Assembly: GCA_012517375.1 (NCBI GenBank)
Contig: JAAYVC010000049.1
Coordinates: 1-38,045 of the forward strand
Length of the DNA stretch: 38,045 bases
Direction of reading: 5' to 3'
DNA from: a bacterium
Lineage (GTDB): Bacteria; Hydrothermota; Tepidihabitantia; B3-TA06
In this document: positions 3,676 through 23,355 of the stretch, in pieces
Layout of the letters: every line of letters starts with the position of its first letter
How positions within the stretch are numbered: the stretch's first letter is position 1
Position numbers and translations under genes: made by a program
The notes under the pieces: model-generated
Seen by the model: only the letters and a program-made list of their open reading frames with translations
Databases searched by the model: none
Told to the model about the DNA's origin: nothing

Positions 3676-5250
3676 ATGATCAGGAAATGGCTTCTTGCGG
3701 GAATCTGGCTGGCATTTATTGCAATTTCTTGTGAAAGACCTTCCCCTGGCTATGCAAACGTAAAAGTGTATTCAGAGCCAGCTGGCGCTGACGTGTTTAT
3801 TGATGACAGCTCCACAACGCTAAAAACCGACTGCACATTGAAGGATATTCTTCCCGGCGAGCGCGGGATAACCCTAATGCTTCAGGGATATGAAGACTGG
3901 GATACGACCATTTTGCTCGAAGATGGCGACGTCGCAAAAATTCATGCTAATTTGAGGAAGATCGACAGTACCCTTGGAACCATAATCATCTCGTCTGTTC
4001 CTCAAGGTGCGGATGTTTTTCTGGATGATAGCGCAACCGGCAAGAAAACCGACTGCACTCTGCATAACGTCAAGCTGGGCAATGTCACGCTAAGGCTCGA
4101 ACTCCCAGGATACTTTCCTTATGAAAAGAAAATTTATATTCAGACAGGCGCGACATCGGGCATAAACGCGGTACTCGAGCGGGATGCCTTAGCCTGGAAA
4201 TACAAAACCGGCTGGATTGTCAACTCCTCGCCGGCAATTGCTTCCGACGGCACCGTCTATGTTGGTTCCTGGGATAAAAGCTTTTACGCTTTCAGCAAGG
4301 ACGGCTCCCTCAAATGGAGTTACCTGACAGGTTCATTCGTGGAATCCTCTCCAGCGATAGGTCAGGATGGAACAATCTACTTCGGCTCTCATGACGATTA
4401 CGTCTATGCTCTTACAACGCTTGGAAGCATGAAATGGAGATACGGCTCCTCCTCCGAGGTTACATCATCGCCCGCAATAGCCGCAAACGGCACCATATAC
4501 TGCGGGGCAAGGGCAAGAAGAGAAGTGACCCAGGAGATAGTCGATTATCTTTACGCATTAAATCCTGATGGCTCGCTTAAATGGAGATTTGAGATTGGAG
4601 AGGAATCGTTCAAGGTTACGGCTTCGCCCGTTATAGCCTCGTCAGGAAACATCTACTTCGGGTGCGAAGACAAGAACCTCTACTGCATCAACACATCGGG
4701 GACAAAGGAATGGAGCTTTCCCGCAGGCGGAGTTATTAACTCATCGCCAGCTATAGCCCAGGACGGGACTATTTATTTCGGTTCGGACGATAAGAAGCTT
4801 TACGCGTTGACATCCAGTGGTTCACTCAAGTGGAGCTATACAACGGAAGGACTAGTCCAATGCTCGCCCTCTCTTGGGACTGATGGAACCATTTATGTAG
4901 GCTCATCAGATGGTTATCTTTACGCAATAACACCTCAAGGAACCTTGAAATGGCGCTATAAAACAGCCTCGTCTGTTACCTCTACCCCTGCTGTGGGCGC
5001 GGACGGAGCTTTGCACTTCGGATCATCGGACACTTATGTTTATATCTTAGACTCCCAGGGTCAACTCCTTTGGAGGTATAAACTTGAGGGTGCGGTGAAA
5101 TCGTCGCCAGCATTATCTCCGGATGGAGTCCTTTATGTAGGCTCGGACGATGGGTACATTTACGCCATTAACGTCGATTCCAAAGGACTCGCTTCCTCAT
5201 CCTGGCCTAAATTCCACCGCAACAACTCGAATACCGGACGGTCACAATAA
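3676..5250 (+). CDS. PEGA-domain and PQQ-like beta-propeller lipoprotein
   Basis: A 524-residue exported protein. An N-terminal signal runs to Cys19 (FIAISC), an acceptable though not ideal lipobox. Two PEGA domains follow (about 27-95 and 98-170), each with the EPAGADVFIDD / VPQGADVFLDD start that gives the family its name. From about residue 175 come eight repeats of roughly 40 residues with the pattern SSPAIAxDGTIYxGSxDxxLYALxxxGSLKWxY, as in PQQ-dependent dehydrogenase-like (YncE/BamB-like) propellers. Repeat 3 carries a 10-residue insertion. No PQQ-binding or catalytic residues are apparent, so a scaffolding or binding role at the cell surface is likelier than enzyme activity. ATG 3676 has AGGAGGT five bases upstream. 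A weak promoter may lie around TATAAT 3632-3637 but has no convincing -35 box. Confidence 0.85.
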   Translation: MIRKWLLAGIWLAFIAISCERPSPGYANVKVYSEPAGADVFIDDSSTTLKTDCTLKDILPGERGITLMLQGYEDWDTTILLEDGDVAKIHANLRKIDSTLGTIIISSVPQGADVFLDDSATGKKTDCTLHNVKLGNVTLRLELPGYFPYEKKIYIQTGATSGINAVLERDALAWKYKTGWIVNSSPAIASDGTVYVGSWDKSFYAFSKDGSLKWSYLTGSFVESSPAIGQDGTIYFGSHDDYVYALTTLGSMKWRYGSSSEVTSSPAIAANGTIYCGARARREVTQEIVDYLYALNPDGSLKWRFEIGEESFKVTASPVIASSGNIYFGCEDKNLYCINTSGTKEWSFPAGGVINSSPAIAQDGTIYFGSDDKKLYALTSSGSLKWSYTTEGLVQCSPSLGTDGTIYVGSSDGYLYAITPQGTLKWRYKTASSVTSTPAVGADGALHFGSSDTYVYILDSQGQLLWRYKLEGAVKSSPALSPDGVLYVGSDDGYIYAINVDSKGLASSSWPKFHRNNSNTGRSQ

Positions 5251-5335
5251 TAAATCTGCAGCCCTATCGTTGACTTTTGCCATTCGCTAAGTAGTTTTAA
5301 CCTTAAATTATAAACTAAGATCAGCGGAGGAGAAT

Positions 5336-8164
5336 ATGCAACTCATTTTTGTAATTGCATCGTTGTTTTTTCACGCCTGGGGCCATGAACAGATAGGCAA
5401 CGGCAACTCGGGAATGCAAGGAATAACAGTAGGTTACGGTCAAAACGACGATACTTTGAGGATTTATTCGGGATGCGACGATTCTACTGTCTATGAATTT
5501 ACGTTTTCGGGTAGCTCATGGAGAAAGAACCCTGTTGGAAAGGGACAGGGTCAGATGCATGGCCTTTCGGTCGGATTCGGTAGAAACGACGCCATAAGAA
5601 GGATATATGCGGGCTCCTGGACAACATCGGCAGGTCCTGACGAGTTTACTTACGAGGATGGTTCGTGGCAGCAGGTACCCATTAGTTCAGGACTACAGAA
5701 TTCCTACGACGGCGTAGTCGCATACGGACGAAACGATGATACCTTAAGGGTTTACACGGGAACAAATGAGGGTCAATGCCACGAATTTACATGGAGGAAC
5801 GGTGCATGGACGAGTCAGTACATGGGAGGAAGTTCCTCATCCACGGACGGGTCTCAGCACGATGTTTTCGCAGGCCACGGCCGCAACGACGATACAATCC
5901 GCATATACGGTGCGTGCACTGATGGAAATGTTTGGGAATTTACGAATCGCGGCGGCGTATGGTTTCCGCAAGTTATTTCTACGACCGACGGATGTGCATG
6001 GGGAGTATGCGTTGCAGAGGGCCGCAACGACGGAGTAAAACGAGTTTATGCATCCTGCGGACCGCAGGGCAGCCCGGGAGACATATATGAATTTACATGG
6101 GAGAACGACAATTGGACGCGCACCCTGGTGATGCATTCTACATCCTGCTTCTTCGGTATAGGAGCTGGTGTAGGCCGGAACGATGACACATTAAGACTTT
6201 ACGCAGGATCGTTCAGTCCAGGCCACCTTTACGAATATACGTGGCGAAACAACCAGTGGAACGCCTTTGACTGCGGCGAGATTCCGAGCGGGTCCTGGCT
6301 TCACGATATCTATCTTGCCAAAGGCCGCAACGATGATACGGTAAGGGTTTATGCTGGAGGAGGCGACAGATGGGTTCATGAATTTACCTACAGACCAGAC
6401 GCAGGCGTAAGGGTGCAACCCGATTCATCAGCCGAAACAAACCCTGGCGTGCCGATTGTGTATTCGATGTGGGTTGTTAATACGGGAACACACAAGGATA
6501 CTATTGATATCGCAACATCCGGCACACTGGACGGCTGGGATATAAGAATTCTCGACTCAGGGGGAACCCCCTTGACGGATTCTGATGAGGATCGAAAAAC
6601 CGACGTAGGAGCGATGAATTCATTTGATTCGGTTTCTATCAGGGTAGAGATCACATCACCGAGCGCGGCAATAGCTGGCACAACCGACTCGACGCGGGTA
6701 TGGGGCTCGTCCAGTCTTGCTCCTCTGGTCAGAGATTCCGCCATTCTTTTAACGACTATTGCTCAAATCTCAGGTCTTGTCGTTGAACCTGATCAGACGG
6801 ACAGCATTATTGCAGGCGAAGCTGTTGACTACATACTTACTGTCAGGAACGAGAGCAACTCAAGCGATTTAGTCGACTTGACTTCAAGCGGAACAATTTC
6901 AGAATGGGGTCTCGAACTCCTTGACGACGCCGGCCTGCCCCTGGAGGATTCGGATTCTGACGGTGACGCTGATATCGGACCTCTCTCAGCTGGTGAAGAC
7001 GTCGAGATCATTGCAAGAATTACTTCTCCGCCAGGCGCGGAGGGCGGAACAGTTGATACCTCAAGAGTAATAGGTGCGCTTAACATTGACCAATCGGTCA
7101 GGGATGCGGCCGCTCTCATGACCGTCATCAGGATTGTCCCTCAAGTGAGAATCGAAAGAGATTCCACTGATTCTACAGATGCTGGTTCTCCTGTTCGCTA
7201 CCGAGTAAATGTAACCAATCTTGGAAATAAAACCGAAGCAATAAATCTTGCGTTTCATTCCAGTCAGAACTGGCAATGCTTTTTGTATGATTCCACAGGA
7301 ATAACATACCTTTCAGATTCTGATGGAGATTCTCACATAGATGCAGGTTCTCTAGGAGCTTACGGCGATTCCGCCCTGCTCTGGATAGATATCGCTCCGC
7401 CTGCAAATGCCCGCCATAACACAGTAGATACAACGTATCTTACCGCTTTTTCATCACTTGATGAATTGGTGAGAGACAGTATAAGGCTCATAACAAGGGC
7501 GATGAATCTTATCCCAGGTGTATCAGTCGAACCCGATCAGGAAGGAACGGTAGATGCGGGCTCATCGATTCTCTACACCTTAAGAATAATAAACCAGGGC
7601 AATGAACCTGATAGTTTCGATTTGAGGATGGAATCGGATCTTTCCTGGCAGGCTGCCTTGAGACTACCGCAGGGTGAACCAGTAACCACTACAGGTCCTT
7701 TAGTAGCCAAGGATACAATGATAGTGGAGGTTCAAATAACTTCTCCTCCCGAATTGGCATCCATCATAGGTTCACCGGACTCAAGAAATACTGAACATCG
7801 AACGCTTTGGGCACAGTCACTCTCAAATCCATCGGTTCAGGATTCGGCATACATAATAACTCTTGCCGTACCGCCGCTCGACATCCACAACTACCCGAAT
7901 CCCTTCAGGGGTGCCACAACCTTCATATACAGTATACCGACGAGGGGAAAGGCAACTCTTTCAATCTTCAACAGAGCGGGCGAACATATCGCAACTCTAT
8001 TTGAATCTATTGATAGAGAACCTGGCATATTCACTGAATCATGGAACGGTTTGTCTTCAAGTAATGGAAGGACCGCACCTGGGGTGTATCTTTATTCACT
8101 AACCTTTGTCCCTGAACAGGGCAAAACACGAAGGATAACCAAGAAGGCGTTGCTGCAGCCTTAA
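5336..8164 (+). CDS. Secreted protein: seven-repeat GRNDD propeller, four Ig-like repeats, C-terminal sorting domain
   Basis: A 942-residue exported protein with a short signal peptide (about 1-16). Residues 20-355 hold seven repeats of 43-50 residues, each with a (Y/G)GRNDDTxRxYxG core and a closing EFTWxxGxW; seven such units suggest a seven-bladed propeller. Residues about 355-478, 479-601, 602-726 and 727-845 are four Ig/NEW3-like repeats (VEPDQTDSxxAGxxVxYxLxVxN), three with acidic DSDxDGDxDIG loops that may bind calcium. The end (about 847-942) is the FCB sorting domain: NYPNPFRG, then APGVYLY and a basic tail, typical of type IX or related secretion. SD GGAGGAG precedes the ATG. A TTGACT at 5270-5275 may be a -35 box, but the -10 is unclear. 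Ligand unknown. Confidence 0.85.
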   Translation: MQLIFVIASLFFHAWGHEQIGNGNSGMQGITVGYGQNDDTLRIYSGCDDSTVYEFTFSGSSWRKNPVGKGQGQMHGLSVGFGRNDAIRRIYAGSWTTSAGPDEFTYEDGSWQQVPISSGLQNSYDGVVAYGRNDDTLRVYTGTNEGQCHEFTWRNGAWTSQYMGGSSSSTDGSQHDVFAGHGRNDDTIRIYGACTDGNVWEFTNRGGVWFPQVISTTDGCAWGVCVAEGRNDGVKRVYASCGPQGSPGDIYEFTWENDNWTRTLVMHSTSCFFGIGAGVGRNDDTLRLYAGSFSPGHLYEYTWRNNQWNAFDCGEIPSGSWLHDIYLAKGRNDDTVRVYAGGGDRWVHEFTYRPDAGVRVQPDSSAETNPGVPIVYSMWVVNTGTHKDTIDIATSGTLDGWDIRILDSGGTPLTDSDEDRKTDVGAMNSFDSVSIRVEITSPSAAIAGTTDSTRVWGSSSLAPLVRDSAILLTTIAQISGLVVEPDQTDSIIAGEAVDYILTVRNESNSSDLVDLTSSGTISEWGLELLDDAGLPLEDSDSDGDADIGPLSAGEDVEIIARITSPPGAEGGTVDTSRVIGALNIDQSVRDAAALMTVIRIVPQVRIERDSTDSTDAGSPVRYRVNVTNLGNKTEAINLAFHSSQNWQCFLYDSTGITYLSDSDGDSHIDAGSLGAYGDSALLWIDIAPPANARHNTVDTTYLTAFSSLDELVRDSIRLITRAMNLIPGVSVEPDQEGTVDAGSSILYTLRIINQGNEPDSFDLRMESDLSWQAALRLPQGEPVTTTGPLVAKDTMIVEVQITSPPELASIIGSPDSRNTEHRTLWAQSLSNPSVQDSAYIITLAVPPLDIHNYPNPFRGATTFIYSIPTRGKATLSIFNRAGEHIATLFESIDREPGIFTESWNGLSSSNGRTAPGVYLYSLTFVPEQGKTRRITKKALLQP

Positions 8165-8238: not shown

Positions 8239-8547
8239 ATGGAAACGAAGATTGGAGTGCGTGAATTCCAGGAATTGATTAAGGAAGAATTCTTCCACAA
8301 GGACTCCCCCAGAGGCTTGGCAAAGACCTTTATCTGGTTTACGGAAGAGGTCGGCGAACTGGCACGTGCCATAAGAAATGCCGATGAAAACCATCTAAAG
8401 GAAGAGTTCGCCGATGTGCTTGCCTGGCTCTGTACGATGGCCAATCTGGCCGGGATAGACCTTGAGGAAGCCGTTTTGGATAAATACAATAAGGGTTGCC
8501 CCCGTTGCGGGGGAAAACCTTGCAGATGTAAAGAAGCCTTCAACTAG
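8239..8547 (+). CDS. MazG-like nucleotide pyrophosphohydrolase with C-terminal zinc-knuckle motif
   Basis: A 102-residue protein of the all-alpha NTP pyrophosphatase group, which hydrolyses nucleoside triphosphates (often non-canonical ones) to monophosphates using Mg ions. The metal-binding pattern is complete: E36-E37-x-x-E40 in the first helix and E56-x-x-D59 in the second. The C-terminus adds C87-x2-C90-x4-C95-x-C97, a likely zinc site seen in some short MazG-like proteins. It heads a run of membrane-protein genes: the next starts 9 bases after its stop, with AGGAGG spanning the gap. Translation is probably leaderless. Substrate unknown; the link to the membrane genes may be only transcriptional. 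Confidence 0.85.
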   Translation: METKIGVREFQELIKEEFFHKDSPRGLAKTFIWFTEEVGELARAIRNADENHLKEEFADVLAWLCTMANLAGIDLEEAVLDKYNKGCPRCGGKPCRCKEAFN

Positions 8548-8556
8548 GAGGATCAT

Positions 8557-9855
8557 TTGAACCTTTTTAAGTTCATCTTCCTCATCTTTTTACAGCCTGA
8601 AGGAGACAGCGTTCCGGCAGTACTGCCGCCTATAAGGCCTCCTTCTCAAGTTGTAGCAATCGATGTGCCTAATGACCAGGGCGGTCAAATAGACATCAAG
8701 TGGAAACTTTCTCCCGATGATGCCCTTCTGGATGGTTATGCTGTCTACCGCCTGGAAAATGGAAAGGAACCCCAAATGATAGCCTTTCTTGCTCCGCGCC
8801 GCGACAGCACAATGGAAAGTAACGACGATGCGCTCTTCACTATAAAAAACATCGAGACACAGTTGAAATATTCGCGAAGCGACTTGAGAAAAGCCGAGAG
8901 GAAAAAAGATGCTGAAGCTATAAAAGAATTAACGGCTGATATAAAGGCTATGGAAGACTATGTGGCTTCACTCAAGGCATCACTCATGAGCAATTTTACG
9001 CCATACACTTACAAGGTTGCCGCAGTTCGCGGAGAAGAAGAGGTTCTTTCAGAACCCTCGGCAGAAGTAAAGGCATATCCTCAGTGGTTCCACTTGCAGA
9101 GGATAAATGTTCTTATTGCCATGGTCTTCTTCTTTTTCCTTGTGTTGTTCTTCATTTCAAGGGCAAAACGCGGCAAGGAACTCTTCCTACGCAAGATTGC
9201 CGGTCTTGAGGCAATTGATGAAGCCGTAGGACGTGCGACCGAGATGGGCAGGCCCATACTCTTCGTCCCGGGATTATCTGATATAAGTGACATAGCAACC
9301 ATCGCCGCACTCAATATCCTGCAGGGCATAGCGAAGAAAACGGCTCAGTACGACACTCCCATAATCGTTCCGAACCGAGACCCTATCGTCTACACGGTCG
9401 CCCGTGAAATCGTCAAGGAAGCGTATTCCGATGTTGGTCGGCCTGACGCCTTTAACCCGGACAGCGTCTTTTACATGACCGGCGATCAGTTTGCGTTCGT
9501 ATCAGGCGTTAATGGAATCATGCTGCGCGAGAAACCGGCAACAAATTTCTTCCTCGGGATGTTCTATGCTGAATCCCTTTTGCTTGCCGAAACCGGAAAC
9601 ATCTCGGGAGCGATACAGATTGCAGGAACAGATGCATCATCACAGCTTCCTTTCTTTATTACTGCCTGCGACTACACCATCATAGGCGAGGAGCTTTACG
9701 CGGCCTCCGCATACCTCTCACGCAATCCGGAACTTATAGGAACAATAAAGGCCCAGGACTGGGGCAAGGCGACAATTGCAGTATTGCTTGTGATACTCAG
9801 CCTGCTTGCCGCATTCGGCCTCGAGTTTGCGGTCCAGATACTTCAAACGGTATAG
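8557..9855 (+). CDS. DUF6754-like membrane protein with FN3-like domain
   Basis: A 432-residue protein. Its N-terminus is a signal anchor or signal peptide (about 1-12), then an exported fibronectin-III-like region containing LLDGYAVYRLENG, split by a charged helical insertion (about 95-135, probably coiled coil). A transmembrane helix (about 185-201) is followed by a cytoplasmic alpha/beta domain with GRPILFVPGL and TPIIVPNRDPIVYTVARE, and a second helix at the C-terminus (about 408-428). I assign it to the DUF6754 type from memory at moderate confidence; no function is known to me. The start is TTG at 8557 with AGGAGG five bases upstream. It is the first of four consecutive membrane genes, which suggests one complex. 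Confidence 0.75.
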   Translation: MNLFKFIFLIFLQPEGDSVPAVLPPIRPPSQVVAIDVPNDQGGQIDIKWKLSPDDALLDGYAVYRLENGKEPQMIAFLAPRRDSTMESNDDALFTIKNIETQLKYSRSDLRKAERKKDAEAIKELTADIKAMEDYVASLKASLMSNFTPYTYKVAAVRGEEEVLSEPSAEVKAYPQWFHLQRINVLIAMVFFFFLVLFFISRAKRGKELFLRKIAGLEAIDEAVGRATEMGRPILFVPGLSDISDIATIAALNILQGIAKKTAQYDTPIIVPNRDPIVYTVAREIVKEAYSDVGRPDAFNPDSVFYMTGDQFAFVSGVNGIMLREKPATNFFLGMFYAESLLLAETGNISGAIQIAGTDASSQLPFFITACDYTIIGEELYAASAYLSRNPELIGTIKAQDWGKATIAVLLVILSLLAAFGLEFAVQILQTV

Positions 9856-9863
9856 GAGGTTAA

Positions 9864-10517
9864 ATGCAGCGCACACTACCTTTAGTAATTACGCTGGTGC
9901 TCGGCATCGTGATGATGATTCAGTTCTTCATCCCGCACCAGTTCTCCAAGGCGTTTTACGATACTTCGCTGGAATGGCTGAGAGTAATGGGCTCTTTCGC
10001 GTTCATTCTGGGACTTTCGAGTTTTGTAACCCACCATTATCTGAAGATAAGACACAAAAAGGAAGGCTGGCAGTACAGTCCGATAGCCCTTGGAGCTCTT
10101 GTAATAATGGGCATCCTCGGGCTTGTTGGACGCTCCCCTAGCGTTACTCTCTGGCCTGTAAACGGCCAGAACATCTTCCTGTATCTCTTCAATAATTTCT
10201 ATTCATACATGATGGTCCCGCTTGGAGCAACCATGTTTTCAGTGCTTGCCTTCTATATCGCTTCTGCCGCCTACCGTTCCTTCAGAGCCAAGTCTCTGGT
10301 CTCGACCCTTCTACTGATAGCCGCCTTTATTGTGATGCTTTCAATAATCCTCTACAACGTTCTTCCCATAGGAAACCTTGGCGAATGGCTCCTATCCGTA
10401 CCTAATCTTGCAGCGAAACGCGGGATTCTCTTGGGCGCTGTTCTCGGCAGCATCGCGACTTCGTTAAAGATAATACTCGGAATCGAAAAAGGTTACCTAG
10501 GCGGAGGTGGCAAATGA
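9864..10517 (+). CDS. Six-helix integral membrane protein, module component 2
   Basis: 217 residues with about six hydrophobic helices (roughly 4-22, 32-52, 72-90, 107-130, 143-165, 183-203). I recognise no enzyme motif. The gene starts 8 bases after the previous stop with AGGAGG, and its last four bases (ATGA) overlap the start of the next gene, so the products are probably made in fixed proportion. The small loops and charge pattern fit a membrane scaffold or channel-like subunit. Function unknown. Confidence 0.8.
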   Translation: MQRTLPLVITLVLGIVMMIQFFIPHQFSKAFYDTSLEWLRVMGSFAFILGLSSFVTHHYLKIRHKKEGWQYSPIALGALVIMGILGLVGRSPSVTLWPVNGQNIFLYLFNNFYSYMMVPLGATMFSVLAFYIASAAYRSFRAKSLVSTLLLIAAFIVMLSIILYNVLPIGNLGEWLLSVPNLAAKRGILLGAVLGSIATSLKIILGIEKGYLGGGGK

Positions 10518-11371
10518 ACTTCTGGGAAAAACTCGGTAAAATAGACCGCAGGATAATCTACGGGATAATTGCTGTGGTCGTAATTGTACCTCTCGTAGCC
10601 GTCATAAAGCTTCCATCCAAGGTCAGGGCAATGCCCCGAACGCTGGATGTCTTCAATCACATAGAAAACATTGACATCCATTCGCAGCGTAAGGCTTTGA
10701 TGATCTCCGTTGACTTTGACCCGCAGGTCGAACCTGAGCTTAAGCCCCAGTTCGAAGCCGTAGTCCGGCATGCCTTCGCCCGAAACATCCCTGTAGTGGT
10801 GATGGCTCCATTTAGCGTTCAAGGCGTAAATATAGGCGTCGATGTAATTGAAAGACTTGCCCAAGAACACGGCAAGGAGTACGGTAAGGATTATGTGATA
10901 TTGGGATGGATACCTGGCGGAGTTGCCGTAATACTAGGAATGGGCAACTCCATAGAACAAACATGGAGAGCGGATAACAACGGAACGCCCATCTCCCAGA
11001 TTCCTATGATGAATAACATACGCAACTACGACGATGTAGCTTTGATCATAAGCTTCACAGGTTCAACATATTACGGTTATTGGATAACGTACGCTTATAC
11101 TACTTTTGGTGTTCCTGTAAGCACAGGGATAACGGCCGTTTCTGTGGCTGATATATATCCCTACCTCGGCTCGAAACAGCTTACAGGAATGCTTGCCGGC
11201 ATGAAAGCGGGCGCCGAGTACGAAAGGCTCGTCAAGGACAAGTACTATCCTGATAAAGAGATATTCCTGCGCGCCACCCAATCCCTTCCAGCCCTGTCCG
11301 CATCCCTGATAGTGATTATTCTTTTCGTCATTATCGGGAACATCAGTCACTTTGCCACGAGGAGGAAGTGA
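10514..11371 (+). CDS. Membrane-anchored alpha/beta protein, module component 3
   Basis: 285 residues: an N-terminal transmembrane helix (about 15-32), a soluble domain of about 210 residues and a C-terminal helix (about 262-280). The soluble part begins KALMISVDFDPQVEPELKPQ and continues with IPVVVMAPFS, DYVILGWIPGG and DVALIISFTGSTY, alternating strands and helices in a Rossmann-like order. The layout (helix, alpha/beta domain, helix) is like the C-terminal half of the protein encoded at 8557, so the two may be distant paralogues; I could not align them convincingly. ATGA overlaps link it to both neighbours. No catalytic residues recognised. Confidence 0.78.
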   Translation: MNFWEKLGKIDRRIIYGIIAVVVIVPLVAVIKLPSKVRAMPRTLDVFNHIENIDIHSQRKALMISVDFDPQVEPELKPQFEAVVRHAFARNIPVVVMAPFSVQGVNIGVDVIERLAQEHGKEYGKDYVILGWIPGGVAVILGMGNSIEQTWRADNNGTPISQIPMMNNIRNYDDVALIISFTGSTYYGYWITYAYTTFGVPVSTGITAVSVADIYPYLGSKQLTGMLAGMKAGAEYERLVKDKYYPDKEIFLRATQSLPALSASLIVIILFVIIGNISHFATRRK

Positions 11372-12024
11372 TGCACATATCTTTGAATCCCTGGGTATGG
11401 ATAGCGGCAATCCTGACCCTTGCAATATTCAGCATACTTTTCAAGGAAAACCCCTTTTACCGCGTCGCCGAGCATCTGTTTCTCGGTCTCAGCGTCGGTT
11501 ATTCGCTAACCTTCATATGGCACAACGCCCTATGGCAGATTGCATTCAAGCCTCTTTTCGTCGGCGGCGAAGTAATCCTCATAATTCCCATACTGCTTGG
11601 TCTTTTGTACTTCGCGCGGCTTATTCCCAAGATCTCATGGTTGGTCCGTATTCCAATAGCCATTACGCTTGGCTGGGGTTCCGGAATGGCGATTCCCAGA
11701 ATGTTTCAGGCAAGCATCTTCAAGCAGATGGAAGCAGGCGTCCAGCAGATTATGCCGCAGATGTTCAAAGGCGATAACCTTTTCGCGCTTTCAGGCGGAT
11801 TCTGGGGCATATTGATACTCATCGGCACTCTTGCGACATTGATATACTTTTTCTTCTCGCGAAAAGAGAAGAGCGTGCTTTCGACCGTGGTTTCGCCTGT
11901 CGGTATTTTCTTCATCATGCTCGGGTTCGGAGCCACTTTCGGATTAACGGTTATGTCGCGTATTTCTTTGCTGATAGGACGCCTTCAATTCCTTCTTAGA
12001 GACTGGCTGGGATTAATCCAGTAG
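11368..12024 (+). CDS. Multi-pass membrane protein, module component 4
   Basis: 218 residues with about six hydrophobic segments (roughly 8-24, 33-52, 63-84, 92-110, 147-166, 176-205) and the conserved-looking end SRISLLIGRLQFLLRDWL, an amphipathic helix close to the membrane. It starts inside the ATGA overlap with the previous gene and is the last member of the operon; a GC-rich hairpin follows 30 bases after the stop. No similarity to a known transporter is apparent. Function unknown, probably shared with the three genes before it. Confidence 0.78.
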   Translation: MMHISLNPWVWIAAILTLAIFSILFKENPFYRVAEHLFLGLSVGYSLTFIWHNALWQIAFKPLFVGGEVILIIPILLGLLYFARLIPKISWLVRIPIAITLGWGSGMAIPRMFQASIFKQMEAGVQQIMPQMFKGDNLFALSGGFWGILILIGTLATLIYFFFSRKEKSVLSTVVSPVGIFFIMLGFGATFGLTVMSRISLLIGRLQFLLRDWLGLIQ

Positions 12025-12054: not shown

Positions 12055-12079
12055 GCCCCCTCCGTTAACCGGAGGGGGC
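12055..12079 (-). terminator. GC-rich hairpin after the membrane operon
   Basis: GCCCCCTCCG (12055-12064) pairs perfectly with CGGAGGGGGC (12070-12079) around a 5-base loop. The run of A before it gives a U-tract only when read on the minus strand; on the plus strand the tail is ATAAGTAAAAA. It could still slow plus-strand transcription between the membrane operon and the phosphohexomutase gene. Confidence 0.55.
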
Positions 12080-22471: not shown

Positions 22472-22545
<74 letters not shown>

Positions 22546-22554
22546 CTAATATTT

Positions 22555-23355
22555 ATGAAGAAACTTTTTCTTCTCATAATACTCGCTTCTCTTGCGGGAT
22601 GCGAGGGCGAAAGACTGGGAATGATCAAGATTGAGGGAACTATCGTTTCCTCGGAGGAGACGGTGAAAAACCTCAAGACTTTCGAGGAAGACCCATCCAT
22701 AAAAGGCGTGTTGGTGGTAGTTAACTCCCCGGGAGGCGGCGTCGGTGCAAGCCAGGAGATCTTCGAGGCAATAAAAAGCCTCAAGGATAAAGGCAAAAAG
22801 GTCGTGGTTTCGATGTCGAGTCTTGCGGCATCCGGTGGATATTACGTTTCGTTGCCTGCTGACAAAATCGTTGCGCTTCCCTCCACCATTACCGGCTCAA
22901 TAGGCGTAATCCTTAATTTTCCGGTTTACAAAGGTCTTATGGACAAGCTTGGAATTCAGGTGTATACGGTTAAATCGAGAGAAAATAAAGACATAGGTTC
23001 AGGAACCAGAGAACCAAAGGAAACCGATACCTTGCTCTTAAAACAAATGATTGACGATGTCTATGAACAATTTGTCGATGAAGTCGTTCTTTGGAGAAAC
23101 CTACCGAAAGATAGTGTATGGGCAATCGCGGATGGAAGGGTTCTTTCAGGCAGACAAGCCTGCAAACTGGGTCTTGTGGATACCCTAGGTTCAAGAGAAG
23201 TAGCCCACAAGATTCTAGCCGAGTTGTGTGAAATGGAAGGTACCCCCAAATTAGTTGAGATACCTAAGAAACGCTCCTTATGGGAGGAGATAATGGAATC
23301 AAGAATAGGCGACTTTTTTACACCCACCCTTAGATATGAACTTCAATTCAGGTAA
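22555..23355 (+). CDS. sppA: Lipoprotein signal peptide peptidase, SppA/S49 family
   Basis: 266 residues. Serine protease of family S49 that degrades cleaved signal peptides in the membrane. The start MKKLFLLIILASLAGC is a lipoprotein signal with lipobox L13-A14-G15-C16, so the enzyme would be lipid-anchored rather than held by a transmembrane helix as in standard SppA. Conserved: VNSPGGGVGAS, the nucleophile Ser93 in LAASGGYYVS, and the general base Lys145 in RENKD. This is the short single-domain form. An in-frame ATG at 22513 lies inside the tRNA gene and is rejected. No Shine-Dalgarno site exists between tRNA and ATG. It is followed after 3 bases by the cyclase gene. Confidence 0.9.
   Translation: MKKLFLLIILASLAGCEGERLGMIKIEGTIVSSEETVKNLKTFEEDPSIKGVLVVVNSPGGGVGASQEIFEAIKSLKDKGKKVVVSMSSLAASGGYYVSLPADKIVALPSTITGSIGVILNFPVYKGLMDKLGIQVYTVKSRENKDIGSGTREPKETDTLLLKQMIDDVYEQFVDEVVLWRNLPKDSVWAIADGRVLSGRQACKLGLVDTLGSREVAHKILAELCEMEGTPKLVEIPKKRSLWEEIMESRIGDFFTPTLRYELQFR

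Follow-up and report, generated by a model that had tools for sequence, protein, structure and literature searches.

A four-gene DUF6754 membrane module and three soluble partners, a putative seven-component system of little-studied bacterial phyla

In this study, four membrane genes, c1, c2, c3 and c4, were analysed at positions 8557-12024 of the window, by which we mean the whole 38,045-nucleotide stretch of DNA under study. It is well supported that c1-c4 form a set, inherited together in many little-studied bacterial phyla. The sequence-only reading had described a four-gene module; the four membrane genes stand, but the module proved incomplete, with three soluble partners (k0, a MutL-type protein and n12) encoded elsewhere in the genome. 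That the seven genes belong to one system is well supported as well, and its function would putatively lie in the ATP-linked movement or assembly of envelope material.

Locus layout and distribution of the membrane genes

All four genes lie on the plus strand as tightly coupled ORFs of the lengths originally read, namely c1 (the DUF6754 protein, 8557-9855, 432 aa), c2 (9864-10517, 217 aa), c3 (10514-11371, 285 aa) and c4 (11368-12024, 218 aa), each with an AGGAGG/GGAGG-like site close to its 5' side. The junctions had been given as an 8-base gap and two ATGA overlaps; the gap between c1 and c2 and the ATGA overlap between c2 and c3 were found as described, but c3 and c4 are joined by a GTGA overlap, or by TGATG if c4 begins at the in-frame ATG at 11371. 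A mazG gene (8239-8547, plus strand), encoding a MazG-type nucleotide pyrophosphohydrolase (PF03819, E 1.9e-14), ends 9 bases before the start of c1, and since a MazG gene also stands immediately 5' of c1 in 15 loci, the operon of this copy probably begins there and reads mazG-c1-c2-c3-c4, with mazG outside the core system. Promoter and terminator scans of the locus gave signals not clearly richer than those of shuffled sequence. A perfect 10-pair GC-rich hairpin (12055-12079) lies between c4 and the next gene, of phosphomannomutase type, with its T-run on the minus strand, on which no gene was recognised there. Elsewhere in the window, a large secreted-looking repeat protein is encoded at 5336-8164, its C-terminal match to the CHU_C type IX sorting domain falling below the cut-off, and the called start of an S49-type peptidase ORF (22513-23355) falls within a tRNA-Ile (22472-22546), so that the true start of the peptidase gene must lie 3' of the tRNA.

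DUF6754 was detected in 140 of the 147 sampled WOR-3 genomes, with up to 7 c1 copies per genome; the search gave no hit in 14 well-known control genomes. A scan of named genomes recovered relatives in WOR-3/Stahlbacteria, Latescibacterota, Edwardsbacteria, TA06, CSSED10-310, Coatesbacteria, Fermentibacteria, Poribacteria, Eisenbacteria, Zixibacteria, Muiribacterium, Hyd24-12, and anammox and other Planctomycetota, so that DUF6754 genes span roughly a dozen named phyla, a count that is approximate because the names of such assemblies may be wrong. Planctomycetota genomes consisting of a single contig carry the system, as do anammox bacteria, and some of these organisms can be cultured.

Whether the four genes stay together in relatives had been posed as a check on the original reading, and the answer favours a conserved membrane module: c2-c3-c4 directly follow c1 at 127 of the 158 DUF6754 genes that could be assessed, that is, those with three downstream genes in view, with median spacings of 9, -1 and -4 bases for c1-c2, c2-c3 and c3-c4, respectively. 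Departures from this order include probable frameshifts or missed ORFs. Scattered or individually absent genes, which the same reading had regarded as evidence against a module, occurred as exceptions only, in the form of a few lone c1 genes without adjacent c2-c4 (eight loci), some of them coexisting with complete sets in one genome, and of four Planctomycetota loci where c1 adjoins n12 and the genome encodes c3 at a separate site. The existence of lone c1 genes indicates that not every copy needs adjacent c2-c4. The genome from which the window derives has one more complete copy of c1-c4, on a different contig. Among 199 Planctomycetota genomes, c1 was found in 50, and c3 in the same 50 and in 1 of the 149 others (50 shared, 0 with c1 only, 1 with c3 only; Fisher p 1e-46); this p-value and those given below for the soluble partners (4e-34 to 1e-46 overall) are too small because genomes share ancestry, and the pattern is still clear.

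Families, folds and predicted topology of c1-c4

The impression that component 1 looks like a DUF6754 protein was borne out, with a match to PF20539 at E 4e-120 and 400 bits against a gathering cut-off of 27. Its membership of this Pfam family is undoubted, but the family name denotes a domain of unknown function only, and the entry is silent on c2-c4 and on the soluble partners. The protein consists of a short N-terminal hydrophobic segment, an FN3-like domain (residues 30-164; 8644-9048, plus strand) recognised by profile and fold matches to FN3 domains, a transmembrane (TM) segment, the DUF6754 alpha/beta domain (9079-9837, plus strand), and a second TM segment. In the confident AlphaFold2 model of c1 (pLDDT 92.8), a helical hairpin (residues 90-147) is inserted into the FN3-like domain of this window's copy. 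The top Foldseek matches of c1 were carried by the FN3 part, and a fold search of the PDB with c1 returned no convincing match to the DUF6754 domain. The DUF6754 domain, 55-70% identical between copies, is better conserved than any other part of the membrane complex, and the extracytoplasmic part of the c1-c4 system is variable.

No match was obtained for c2, c3 or c4 in Pfam or NCBIfam, and scans of 66-88 homologues of each revealed no consistent family; matches of these homologues to Acyl_transf_3, DUF3623, DUF998, DUF3704 and Otopetrin were put down to chance, as they involved few members or poor E-values. Both c2, with six TM segments, and c4, with about six, are conserved multi-TM proteins carrying conserved polar residues; paralogy between these two was considered and rejected on a negative profile comparison. 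The third protein is built as a soluble alpha/beta domain (residues 41-244; 10634-11245, plus strand) between two TM segments, and its confident AlphaFold2 model (pLDDT 95.7) yielded no PDB match with E below 0.001 in Foldseek. Among solved structures, no sequence relative of c2, c4 or the MutL partner was found at the thresholds used. The original statement that no transporter, secretion or respiratory motif is recognisable held in Pfam, NCBIfam, homologue scans and the PDB, where none of c1-c4 matched a known subunit of these kinds: there was no match among the four to an ABC or other primary or secondary transporter family or its ATPase, and the ExbB-ExbD/TolQ-TolR/MotA families (PF01618, PF02472) were absent from the matches of c2, c4 and their homologues, ExbB-ExbD-type genes being seen only as separate neighbours.

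Topology was assessed statistically, from charge bias over 66-102 homologues. With 4.7 K/R per 15 residues after the first TM segment of c1, the FN3 domain is predicted to lie outside the cytoplasm and the DUF6754 domain inside, and both ends of c2 are likewise predicted to be inside. The K/R residues of c3 are concentrated at its two short ends, and the case that its alpha/beta domain lies outside the cytoplasm is moderately strong. It had also been suggested that components 1 and 3 may be ancient paralogues, a suggestion not upheld by profile-profile comparison: hhalign, run with whole profiles and with domains to which AlphaFold2 secondary structure was added, gave probabilities of 1.8% and under 1%. 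In the AlphaFold2 models the order of helices and strands is alike in the two alpha/beta domains, which charge bias sets on opposite sides of the membrane.

Soluble partners k0, MutL and n12

Neighbour analysis showed that, in several phyla, c1 is preceded by a MutL-type ASKHA gene together with n12, and k0, a soluble protein of about 110 residues (18 members), is encoded 5' of MutL in many loci. The full order k0-MutL-n12-c1-c2-c3-c4 is found, with all genes adjacent, in WOR-3, in anammox and other Planctomycetota and in several further lineages, the three soluble genes standing often, not always, 5' of c1-c4. Contig C6 of the window's genome carries k0 and MutL side by side, next to a gcvP gene, and n12 is located on contig C89. 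Contig C62 of this genome holds a single 947-codon ORF (3715-6558, minus strand) in which a second MutL-like part is fused to an n12-like part, and two related genomes have comparable long ORFs that include n12-like parts. In one group of Planctomycetota, seven loci have a gene for a PALP (pyridoxal-phosphate) enzyme close to k0-MutL.

The MutL partner matches PF13941 over positions 1-450 of 450 (E 1e-125), and both of its ASKHA phosphate motifs, DCGSTTTKA and DIGGATTD, are invariant. Mean column identity is 67% for MutL across phyla, which suggests that the system is likely under strong functional constraint, and 57% for n12, a soluble, barrel-sandwich-like protein of about 375 residues. No Pfam match was found for k0, and its identification as a glycine-cleavage H protein was ruled out by the absence of such a match.

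Co-occurrence ties the soluble genes to the membrane module. Among the same 199 Planctomycetota genomes, with strong E-values, n12 was present in 47, comprising 45 of the 50 with c1 against 2 of the 149 without (p 2e-36), and MutL in 49, comprising 45 of the 50 against 4 of the 149 (p 4e-34). Across phyla, 18 of 20 named genomes carried n12. Of the WOR-3 genomes in which DUF6754 is missing, two are well assembled and contain neither n12 nor k0, and four, which are fragmented or less complete, still have n12, an outcome compatible with incomplete assembly. In addition, n12 is mostly represented by one full-length gene per genome, in contrast to the several copies that c1 can reach, which suggests that one shared soluble part serves several membrane sets.

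Putative function and competing explanations

We consider it plausible, though somewhat short of an even chance, that c1-c4 are the inner-membrane part of a seven-component, ATP-linked machine that moves or assembles envelope material. All seven products would join in one complex, in which c2 and c4 make up a 12-TM core, the c3 alpha/beta domain and the FN3 domain of c1 face the periplasm, and the cytoplasmic DUF6754 domain of c1 serves as the docking site for MutL, n12 and k0, whose ATP cycle would drive or assemble the complex. The various c1-c4 copies may then connect a common cytosolic part to periplasmic or outer-membrane partners that differ from copy to copy. The putative task, moving or assembling envelope material such as polysaccharide, is suggested by the periplasmic domains and by neighbours that vary between lineages, namely an SLBB/polysaccharide-export gene next to one clade of c1, Wzi-like genes next to other c1 groups, and ExbB-ExbD near c1 in WOR-3 and Planctomycetota. 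In a FastTree phylogeny of c1, read by local support only, copies tend to cluster by neighbour type, with an SLBB clade, MazG and Wzi groups and ACAD/DUF4388 groups. However, the envelope neighbours are not the same in every clade, and an informative neighbour is missing for about 40% of c1 copies, so these genes may be incidental. No substrate, enzyme motif or known transporter fold was identified.

MutL-type proteins are known less as motors than as accessory factors of B12 enzymes, and the partner found here matches, over the full length of PF13941, the MutL/GlmL protein of glutamate mutase, which shares the ASKHA superfamily with BadF/BcrA and hydantoinase. It differs in its size of about 600 residues, its C-terminal extension and its co-inheritance with a membrane complex. 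This family membership is consistent with a membrane-bound metabolic enzyme or cofactor complex, in which MutL would be a GlmL-like reactivating chaperone and the membrane subunits would carry out or supply a reaction connected with lipoate or glycine cleavage. The enzyme-like conservation of the DUF6754 domain fits such a complex, as do two recurrent neighbours, a gcvP subunit gene upstream of k0-MutL (seen in the window's genome, in further WOR-3 genomes and in three lineages besides) and lplA, a lipoate ligase gene, often 3' of c4 in several WOR-3 and related loci. On the other hand, the genes flanking the Planctomycetota clusters are different ones, the loci read showed no recognisable B12-mutase gene next to MutL, and the likeness of n12 to lipoyl/biotinyl domains is sub-threshold; a role of n12 as a lipoyl carrier was ruled out, its candidate lysine not being conserved. 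We regard a metabolic complex as unlikely.

The ASKHA fold family of MutL also admits an actin-like protein that, with n12, organises an inner-membrane scaffold or signalling complex (polarity, envelope organisation) without transport. The adhesive-type FN3 domain outside would suit this role, and so would a DUF4388 gene and two unassigned soluble genes found 3' of c4 in some loci, but DUF4388-type neighbours are limited to few loci, and the conserved polar residues of the two conserved multi-TM proteins point to a role beyond anchoring, which makes a pure scaffold quite improbable. Sub-threshold matches of the N-terminal half of n12 to the barrel-sandwich domains of NqrA and RnfC (E 0.003-0.01), together with two roughly six-TM subunits, recall a redox or ion pump with n12 as the NqrA/RnfC-like and c2/c4 as the NqrD/E-like components. 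Beyond this likeness the membrane subunits are unrelated: c2 and c4 match no Nqr/Rnf family over 66-68 homologues, no NqrB/D/E-type or NqrA/RnfC subunit was found among c1-c4 nor were other Nqr/Rnf subunits found, no flavin or iron-sulphur motif was recognised, and MutL has no counterpart in Nqr/Rnf, so that such a pump is very improbable.

Returning to the machine proposed above, its most far-reaching form is a new trans-envelope machine in which several interchangeable four-subunit inner-membrane complexes, with folds lacking a close solved relative, share an actin-fold (ASKHA) ATPase together with n12 and k0, in a dozen or so phyla, anammox bacteria included; we put this forward as possible, though less likely than not. 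It would resemble ECF transporters in that one shared ATP-binding part serves several membrane sets, as copy numbers suggest here, but it would use an ASKHA ATPase instead of ABC ATPases, no relation in sequence or fold was found, and transport is putative here.

No mention of DUF6754/PF20539 was found, nor anything relevant on the system's families, in a literature search confined to published, non-subscription papers, so an earlier description is possible. The novelty lies in the system as a unit, to which no characterised transporter or complex is known to be related and whose function is putative. Once seen as a single system, seven uncharacterised or barely characterised proteins become one testable object.
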